From: Spirochaetaceae bacterium
Lineage (GTDB): Bacteria; Spirochaetota; Spirochaetia; Treponematales; Breznakiellaceae
Reading direction: 5' to 3'
Length of the DNA stretch: 19,366 bases
Assembly (NCBI GenBank): GCA_031284295.1
Contig: JAITAE010000294.1
Coordinates: 1 to 19,366, forward strand
The notes beneath the pieces were generated by a model. The model saw only the letters and a program-made list of their open reading frames with translations. It had not been told where the DNA came from and ran no database searches. Positions 13,436 through 14,556 of this stretch are shown piece by piece. Every line of letters begins with the position of its first letter. Position 1 is the first letter of the stretch. The translations under genes were made by a program, and so were the position numbers.

Positions 13436-13549
13436 ATGAAAGTTAGGACAAGTGTGAAACCTATCTGCGATAAATGTAAAGTGATAAAGCGGCACGGTAT
13501 AATCCGTATCATTTGTCAAAATCCAAAACATAAGCAGAGACAGGGTTAG
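13436..13549 (+). CDS. rpmJ: 50S ribosomal protein L36
   Basis: A 37-residue L36: [20 protein letters not shown], then a basic C-terminal half ending [10 protein letters not shown]. The zinc ligands C11, C14, C27 and H32 are all present, so this is the zinc-binding form. L36 stabilises 23S rRNA near the factor-binding side. AGGGGG lies seven bases before ATG 13436. It fills the space between secY and rpsM, which starts 8 bp after the TAG. The infA gene often found beside rpmJ is absent. Confidence 0.97.
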
Positions 13550-13557
13550 GGGGAATA

Positions 13558-13923
13558 ATGGCTCGTATTGCGGGAGTTGACTTACCCAACAAGCACGTTG
13601 ATATTGCTTTGACCTATATATTCGGCATAGGCAGATCAAGCGCGGCGCGGATTTGCGAGAAAACCGGGATAGACGTTAAACGTTTGATAAACGATCTTTC
13701 CGCCGAGGAGTTGAATGAATTACGCCGCCTGATTGAAAGTGATTACAAGGTTGAAGGTAGGCTCCGGACGGAGGTTGCGCTAAACATCAAGCGGCTTATG
13801 GACATAGGCTGTTACCGTGGATTGCGGCACAGAAAGGGTTTGCCGCTTCGCGGTCAGAGGACACGTACTAACGCGCGTACCCGCAAAGGCAAAAAGAAGA
13901 CTGTTGCGGGTAAAAAGAAATGA
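13558..13923 (+). CDS. rpsM: 30S ribosomal protein S13
   Basis: A 121-residue S13 with [20 protein letters not shown], the helix-hairpin-helix [11 protein letters not shown], and the C-terminal tail [27 protein letters not shown], which reaches the P-site tRNA. GGGGGAA precedes the ATG. In E. coli the alpha operon is repressed by S4 binding at the rpsM start. Here the gene follows rpmJ by 8 bp, with no room for that leader, and the structured spacer lies after rpsM instead. Confidence 0.97.
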
Positions 13924-14156
13924 ACCTCACCGCACTGAATAGCAGTGTGTCTTGTAAGCATTACATTATTTACGAGGTTCGTTCTGTAAGGAAATTATTA
14001 GGGAATTATTTAATTGTGGGGTCTACTACCACTTTTTATTGGCGTTGCCAATTCTCGCCCGCCCTAAAGGGTGAGGTATTAGACCCTACTGCGAATAAAC
14101 CGGCGGTTTGAGTTTTCAAATTTTACAACGCCAATTATATATTTACAGGAGGAAGG
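13919..14156 (+). promoter_or_regulatory. Structured rpsM-rpsK spacer: two three-way junctions
   Basis: Domain 1: AATGAACCTC (13919-13928) pairs with GAGGTTCGTT (13974-13983, one G-U). It encloses CGCACTG/CAGTGTG (13931-13937 with 13943-13949) and TGTAA/TTACA (13953-13957 with 13961-13965). Domain 2: GGGTCTACTACC (14019-14030) pairs with GGTATTAGACCC (14075-14086, one mismatch), enclosing TTGGC/GCCAA (14039-14051) and a CCC/GGG hairpin (14062-14071). AAACC/GGTTT follows (14097-14109). ATTGGCGTT (14038-14046) is also fully complementary to AACGCCAAT (14127-14135), just before the rpsK-side Shine-Dalgarno. Alternatives are a regulatory RNA, perhaps for S4 or S11 feedback, or a palindrome-rich non-autonomous mobile element of IS200/IS605 type. 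I recognise no known family. Confidence 0.55.
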
Positions 14157-14183
14157 ATGAGCGGAGGACAGTGTGGCTGCTAA
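14157..14183 (+). CDS. Possible 8-codon leader ORF overlapping the rpsK start
   Basis: ATG 14157 is preceded by AGGAGG (14147-14152), the strongest Shine-Dalgarno near rpsK. It reads MSGGQCGC and stops at TAA 14181-14183, inside codons 3-4 of rpsK and in another frame. Its own codons contain the GGAGG (14163-14167) that serves the rpsK GTG. Ribosomes ending here could re-initiate on rpsK, giving translational coupling. It may also be chance: a strong Shine-Dalgarno placed early as a standby site. The peptide itself resembles nothing I know. Confidence 0.4.
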
Positions 14184-14556
14184 CGTTAAGAAAAAAAAAG
14201 AAAAGAAGTCGGTATATGAAGGTAATGTTTATATACAGGCTACCTTTAACAATACCATTGTGACCATTACCGATTTGATGGGAAACGCTATTTCGTGGGC
14301 GAGCTCAGGCGGTCTTGGTTTTAGGGGAGCAAAAAAGTCTACGCCTTTTGCGGCGCAGACCGTTACAGAGACAGCCGCTCAAAAGGCTATTCAGTCGGGA
14401 TTGCGGGAAGTTCACGTGTATGTGAAGGGGCCCGGTATGGGTAGAGAATCTGCCATACGTCAGCTTGGTGTGCTTGGGATGAAGGTTAAATCCATTAACG
14501 ATGTGACACCGATTCCGCATAATGGCTGCAGACCGCGTAAGACGCGGCGTATCTAA
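14173..14556 (+). CDS. rpsK: 30S ribosomal protein S11
   Basis: A 127-residue S11 with a Lys-rich N-terminus ([13 protein letters not shown]) and the core [15 protein letters not shown]. It continues with [23 protein letters not shown] and [15 protein letters not shown], and ends in [19 protein letters not shown]11 lies on the 30S platform near the E site. The start is GTG at 14173 with GGAGG at 14163-14167; an in-frame TGA at 14158-14160 rules out any longer form. Upstream lies the structured spacer and a competing 8-codon ORF, so initiation may be regulated. Confidence 0.96.

Follow-up and report, generated by a model that had tools for sequence, protein, structure and literature searches.

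The end hairpins of IS200/IS605 insertion sequences have the same orientation at both ends, and the leader of the Escherichia coli alpha operon is regulated by S4. Members of the IS200/IS605 family such as IS608 and ISDra2 are described as having palindromic ends, single-strand action and guides (PMC8266576); their target is short, lies on the 5′ side of the left end and is not duplicated (PMC3119063). The same paper describes the PATEs of Haloquadratum walsbyi as short and non-coding, without terminal inverted repeats or target duplication; their near-terminal palindromes resemble those of IS605-type transposons, their terminal-only forms are ascribed to deletion between direct repeats, and their palindromes are targeted by other mobile elements (PMC3119063).

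The window analyzed here, a stretch of 19,366 nucleotides from a Spirochaetaceae bacterium, contains between rpsM and rpsK a 175-bp sequence (13922–14096, + strand) that is probably (about 0.8) a PATE-like non-autonomous IS200/IS605 element, as judged from the sequence and its relatives. The element resembles PATEs in being short and non-coding, in having near-terminal palindromes, no target duplication and terminal-only forms, and in having palindromes hit by other elements. It differs in forming a spirochaete family, in that each end hairpin lies within a covarying three-way fold, in its left target AAT, and in that its putative partners carry tnpA. With IS200/IS605 elements it shares palindromes at both ends, and its right-end hairpin and AAT junction are common to some tnpA-bearing elements of the genus, but it has no internal gene. 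The E. coli alpha-operon leader belongs to the same operon, whereas the element is mobile, is absent from this site in most relatives and does not precede rpsM. Dispersed palindromes, with RAYT-like genes nearby in some genomes, also recall the REP, REPIN and BIME sequences and their RAYTs; the element, however, is larger, has two different three-way palindromes and bears no GTAG or CGTC tag (PMC2817692, PMC3733652, PMC8266576), and the RAYT-like protein found here differs from the RAYTs of these accounts in having neither HUH nor Y---NP. The kind of element is therefore already known (PATE-like), and what appears to be new is its occurrence in a spirochaete lineage: searches of the open-licence literature gave no paper on these repeats in treponemes, judged by title.

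Structure of the rpsM–rpsK spacer

The genes rpsM (S13; 13558–13923) and rpsK (S11; 14173–14556), both on the + strand, lie in a tightly packed ribosomal cluster. The earlier note had described a 249-bp spacer between them and no leader space 5′ of rpsM, and both statements were borne out: the rpsM stop codon is 13921–13923 and rpsK starts with GTG at 14173, and rpmJ ends at 13549 with rpsM starting at 13558. Downstream of the element lies the ancestral rpsM–rpsK spacer (14097–14156, + strand), which opens with the AA of the old TAA stop and contains AACGCCAAT and a GGCG/CGCC hairpin (14102–14132). In six same-genus spacers, only 1 of the 10 predicted pairs of this hairpin showed a two-sided change, and two pairs were each broken in at least two of the six; covariation support for this ancestral rpsK-leader hairpin is weak. 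An 8-codon ORF (ATGAGCGGAGGACAGTGTGGCTGCTAA; 14157–14183, + strand) has a strong Shine–Dalgarno sequence and overlaps the rpsK GTG start. Its frame is kept in 11/11 same-genus genomes, and a varied form occurs in G020, G022 and G014 (stop TAG in the last); translational coupling is possible.

The fold of 13918–14104 consisted of two consecutive three-way junctions with −63.0 kcal/mol, compared with a shuffle mean of −43.5 (z −4.76), and none of 200 shuffles was equally stable, so the two junctions proposed in the earlier note are real. Two hairpins were found inside each outer stem, as proposed, but the stems, put at 10 and 12 bp, were 9 bp and 10+4 bp in the minimum free energy (MFE) structure. 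In the MFE structure of the whole of 13918–14172, the second junction was retained and the first was rearranged. A translational switch had also been proposed, in which ATTGGCGTT (14038–14046) would pair with AACGCCAAT (14127–14135). Both arms are present, but in folded 13918–14172 their pairing had a probability of about 1e-5, and forcing it cost 8.5 kcal/mol compared with the MFE. A complement of at least 9 nt arose in 64/2000 mononucleotide shuffles, the longest observed being 10. The AACGCC of the AACGCCAAT region pairs instead with GGCG at 14102 in the same spacer (p 0.95–0.996), and AACGCCAAT lies within the older rpsK leader (14097–14156), outside the element, which ends at 14096. A search of the window against Rfam gave no family at gathering score; the three matches in the spacer (E 1 to 9.5) were all far below it, and one of them was a sub-threshold match to a ribosomal leader, L20_leader (12.3 bits, E 9.5). 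No terminator-like site was found on the + strand inside the element, and one was found on the − strand.

Parts and ends of the element

The element runs from GAACCTC to CTGCGAAT, as delimited by its copies, the empty sites and the ends. Directly before it and outside it, according to the empty sites and the flank counts, stands AAT (13919–13921), the presumed target. The left-end three-way palindrome, P1 (13922–13980; fold, and covariation in 63 sequences), has the outer stem GAACCTC/GAGGTTC and includes the left-end hairpin (13931–13949), which reads CGCACTG-AATAG-CAGTGTG in the window copy and CCCCGCCC-TGAA-GGGCGGGG in many others. A linker (13981–14015; GTTCTGTAAGGAAATTATT...) separates P1 from the right-end three-way palindrome, P2 (14016–14089; fold, and covariation in 33 sequences), whose outer stem is GTGGGGTCTA/TAGACCCTAC. 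The first inner hairpin of P2 (14038–14052; ATTGGCGTTGCCAAT) contains the supposed switch arm, and the right-end hairpin (14056–14075; CGCCCGCCCTAAAGGGTGAG) has the type and orientation of the left-end hairpin of most copies. All these parts are given on the + strand.

When the copies were compared with their flanks, a common unit was found, AAT↓GAACCTCC-hairpin-GGTATC..., linker, GTGGGGTCTAC...hairpin-GGTATTAGACCCCACTGCGAAT↓AAA, where arrows mark the junctions. P1 and P2 share one hairpin type in direct orientation, CGCCC-TGAA/TAAA-GGGCGGGGTAT, with CGCCGCAGAGCGGCG as an alternative. The element thus has near-terminal palindromes without terminal inverted repeats, and its ends are GAACC...GCGAAT. 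Many of the 33 rows of the P2 alignment, though not every one, had ATTC, the partner of GAAT, 5′ of the right hairpin.

The ends were counted in 75 distinct two-ended copies (221 loci), with repeat-flank copies, weak hits and short-flanked hits excluded. On the left stood AAT in 63 copies and GAT in 7, with other triplets in the remaining 5; the left frequency of AAT is biased upward because AAT was part of the left search model. The right end was AAT in 70 of the 75, followed by AAA in 53. The 12 copies whose left triplet is not AAT nonetheless all finished in AAT, indicating that this AAT is the right end of the element and not a target duplication; the window site itself, having AAT on both sides, is uninformative on this point. 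Copy lengths ranged from 46 to 244 (median 168), and 5/75 copies were terminal-only forms of 46–61 bp, in which the left end runs into the right end via one hairpin. At 175 bp the element is too short for a transposase gene, and a 63-aa ORF across it is a mechanical listing.

Dispersal among genomes

A query of 13900–14170 gave 28 matches in the window's own genome (G000; 318 contigs, 58% complete), including the window copy. The earlier note had said that many near-identical copies would favour a mobile element; the other 27 were 69–88% identical to the window copy, save one 25-base piece at 96%. One own-genome copy had 95% identity to the family consensus, and in related genomes the identity of copies was as high as 96%. 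With the consensus as query and two candidates scored per genome, 63/291 genomes of the order, the own genome included, matched at E 1e-6; the match covered at least 100 of the 169 consensus bases in 34 of them and shorter pieces only in the other 29. Several full-length matches of 90–96% identity occurred in different genera of the family. The element query matched 16/38 relatives (17/39 with the own genome), and the element was present in 9/10 same-genus relatives, a count reduced from 10/10 because the sole match of G008 was the rpsK leader. In a pattern search, the 14 named hits were metagenome-assembled genomes (MAGs) titled Treponema sp. in 3 cases, Spirochaetaceae in 10 and Syntrophomonadaceae in 1; the MAGs with the element presumably come from termite guts, judged by isolate codes. 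No match to the element was found in phages or plasmids. The palindromes were sometimes seen to alternate in arrays.

Insertion at the rpsM stop codon

Thirty rpsM–rpsK spacers, one from the own genome and 29 from relatives, were compared (S13 was found in 37/39 genomes). The P1 and P2 models matched 3/30 loci, those of the own genome, G001 and G005, and the element was absent from the site in 8/11 same-genus genomes, one of which, G007, has a longer, unrelated spacer. The empty sites of G002 and G003 place the cut inside the old rpsM TAA stop, and the G003 site, TAAACGTGCGGTCTGGG, aligns with the window from 14096 (TAAACCGGCGGTTTGAG). The old TAA was cut between T and AA, and the new stop, TGA, joins the T of the target to GA, the first bases of the element. 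This comparison of empty with filled sites concerns the rpsM site only.

Related elements of other subtypes occur at the identical base in G001 and G005 (L048 and L053). The site copy of the own genome was closest to L002, elsewhere in the same genome (81%), that of G005 to L028 in G000 (87%), and that of G001 to L032 (89% over 82 bases). In the ribosomal-gene tree, the nearest neighbours are G010 (support 0.90) and G002 (0.89), both with an empty site; the other nodes are weakly supported. Three subtypes at one base suggest three independent insertions; one old insertion, followed by losses and conversion, is a possible alternative history. Stop codons as a general target were considered and rejected: among 79 distinct left ends, counted after the same exclusions, an open frame of at least 100 codons abutted in the TGA frame in 7 cases, compared with 5 and 8 for the two remaining frames. 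The rpsM stop case looks like coincidence combined with an AATAA preference.

Covariation of the palindromes

The P1 alignment held 63 of the 71 listed P1 copies, and the P2 alignment held 28 of the 31 listed P2 copies, 5′-trimmed, together with five added by coordinates (33 rows). In P1, 91.9% of cells were paired and 8 pairs were changed on both sides; in P2, the values were 91.2% and 6. The covariation score was reached by 0/500 shuffles in either palindrome, the two-sided pair count was matched by 15/500 in each, and the pair-type count was matched by 44/500 in P1 and 322/500 in P2; in the comparison with slid controls, the P1 and P2 structures were favoured because they were drawn partly from the same sequences. 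The covariation proposed as a check on a regulatory RNA was thus positive for both folds, but it was found among dispersed copies, and so provides no argument for a local regulator. The outer stems also covary, which is more than a plain end hairpin requires and counts against the IS200/IS605 reading.

The stems of P1 and P2 together contained 37 G-U pairs compared with 60 A-C mismatches. These are counts of cells (sequences), not events; 15 of the 37 G-U came from one pair and 23 of the 60 A-C from three pairs. Selection on a sense RNA should favour G-U, and since there was no excess of G-U over A-C, the stems look as if they were kept as DNA; these counts look to fit DNA better than sense RNA.

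Relatives that carry tnpA

IS200/IS605 tnpA genes are present in the genus. Among seven tnpA loci searched, the P2 model matched the right ends of G004:C28 (E 4.1e-8) and G003:C24 (E 1.4e-8), where tnpA sits within a P2-like frame, so that nesting could account for some of the similarity. The match at the right end of the own tnpA locus G000:C190 (L198) was weak (0.0026), and a strong P2 match at L083 was an ordinary element copy nearby. The tnpA locus G004:C159 starts AAAT↓GAAGAACC-hairpin-GGTATC and ends GGGTATTAAACCG...GCCTAAT↓AAC, the left end being shared, by eye. The gene was present in 11/12 loci fetched; right ends of the element kind were seen in L190 and L198–L201, the right ends of L192, L194 and L195 lie off the contig, and the more distant tnpA loci L191, L196 and L197, with visible right flanks, lack these ends. 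Including L217, six such right ends were obtained, with AAT↓AA in four and GATT in two. L217 was the only one of 20 loci with mostly one-ended matches to have tnpA (in pieces) beside it, and most of the 20 appear to be other solo elements that share this right end. In the own genome, which is 58% complete, the search gave no intact tnpA with matching ends: the C190 gene has an in-frame TAG and is bounded on its left side by the DDE-IS-like end of another IS, and the C165 gene had no P1/P2 match and, by eye, no such ends.

RAYT-like genes in hairpin loops

A family of RAYT-like genes gave 47 Y1 matches in G010 and 19 in G007. In G010 (L121–L133), these genes lie inside P1 hairpin loops, one loop each and in both orientations. 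A P1/P2 piece was present in 7/9 G010 loci fetched regardless of the element, in 4/9 at E <0.01 (13 loci were fetched, the 4 chosen near element matches being left out of the 9, and pieces were counted to E 0.75). The six fetched G007 loci with the gene (L134–L139) had no P1/P2. The HUH motif was found in 0 of 120 listed homologues of the protein (among 763) and in 0/23 RAYT-like loci (one, L101, broken), whereas canonical relatives used as controls had HUH in 13/13 and Y---NP in 11/13. The structural model of the protein (mean pLDDT 68.6, with good confidence up to about residue 102) best matched the TnpA proteins of IS608 and ISDra2 (E about 1e-5, TM-score 0.47–0.60); a PDB sequence search gave no match. 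With no HUH in these sequences and a predicted TnpA-like fold, the family is apparently a multicopy, catalytically dead TnpA relative.

The RAYT-like cassette of L121 and L123 is bounded by CTAAACTTGACCC/GGGTCAAGTTTAG. These ends recur elsewhere, next to a DDE transposase in L189 and, in L018, L181 and L189, within other P1/P2 loops. The RAYT-like gene was therefore rejected as an autonomous partner, its cassette ends being those of a DDE IS. Insertion into hairpin loops accounts for its association with P1, which is no proof that the protein moves the element. DDE-type IS ends (GGGTCAAGTTTAG; DDE_Tnp_1_3 adjoins in L189) were repeatedly seen in P1/P2 hairpin loops, and in L185, by eye, such an end lies inside a palindrome similar to P1/P2.

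Discussion

The mobility of the element rests on genome comparison: its copies are dispersed, the rpsM site occurs both empty and filled, the ends are conserved with no duplication of the target, both folds covary, some tnpA-bearing elements have the same right end, and terminal-only forms exist. A non-autonomous palindrome element of the IS200/IS605 kind was the earlier note's alternative, which the copies, empty sites and ends support. We infer the action of TnpA, the strand used and continued movement. In the most likely mechanism, IS200/IS605 elements of these genomes would provide a Y1/HUH transposase (TnpA) in trans. The enzyme would recognise the folded single strand and cut it 3′ of AAT on the left and, on the right, 3′ of the GAAT that belongs to the element; the released segment would then be joined 3′ of a new AAT, with AAT↓AAA as the preferred site. 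Here, the target would have been the rpsM stop AAAT↓AAACC; the stop would thereby have turned into TGA and the old AA would have been shifted 175 bp downstream.

The reading favoured in the earlier note, a cis-acting regulatory RNA (an S4- or S11-type leader or a translational switch) relocated from before rpsM to between rpsM and rpsK, draws on the stable fold, the covariation of both palindromes, the position in a ribosomal operon with no space 5′ of rpsM, and a related copy at the same base in 3/11 same-genus genomes. Against it, the sequence is a dispersed repeat found in unrelated contexts; 8/11 same-genus sites lack it, and the three copies at the site are different subtypes whose best matches lie at other loci. 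With no excess of G-U over A-C, a switch pairing of probability 1e-5, no Rfam family at gathering score and no conservation at the orthologous site, this reading is highly improbable, and a shift of rpsM-leader control to this spacer is likewise unsupported, the repeat being absent from most same-genus sites. A mobile origin followed by retention for some benefit to rpsM–rpsK (mRNA processing, attenuation or stability) could account for three subtypes at one site in three genomes and for the strong RNA fold; it is nevertheless unlikely, given that the nearest tree relatives, G010 and G002, have no element at this site and that there is no terminator-like site on its + strand. No role in rpsM or rpsK is needed to explain the element.

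Movement by a RAYT (TnpA-REP) of a REP/BIME-type repeat, and not by an IS200/IS605 TnpA, would fit palindromes that are dispersed and sometimes alternate in arrays, as well as the RAYT-like genes in the P1 loops of G010 (7/9 loci with a P1/P2 piece, 4 at E <0.01). We consider it quite unlikely, because HUH is missing from the 120 listed homologues and the 23 family loci but present in 13/13 canonical relatives, because the L121 and L123 cassette has the ends of a DDE-type IS that lies in P1/P2 loops elsewhere, and because the six G007 loci carry the gene without P1/P2; moreover, neither a GTAG nor a CGTC tag was seen by eye at the element ends, and P1 is not an inverted copy of P2. A more speculative and very unlikely scenario takes the rpsM stop as a recurrent landing site, where at least three independent insertions changed TAA to TGA without harm to S13 and the folded insert was recruited to release rpsK from its coupling to rpsM; a catalytically dead TnpA/RAYT-like protein with affinity for hairpins may also bind the palindromes of related genomes, as a repressor or chromosome-organising factor.

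With the spacer sequence identified as a probable PATE-like IS200/IS605 element, a misleading candidate for a ribosomal regulatory RNA is set aside. The case also cautions that RNA function need not follow from strong covariation when the repeats are dispersed, and counting G-U against A-C offers an inexpensive way to tell the two apart. This locus has led to the description of an abundant PATE-like family in spirochaetes and raises two side questions that can be tested, one on the repeated choice of a single base within a ribosomal operon and the other on a multicopy TnpA relative that lacks the catalytic motifs.
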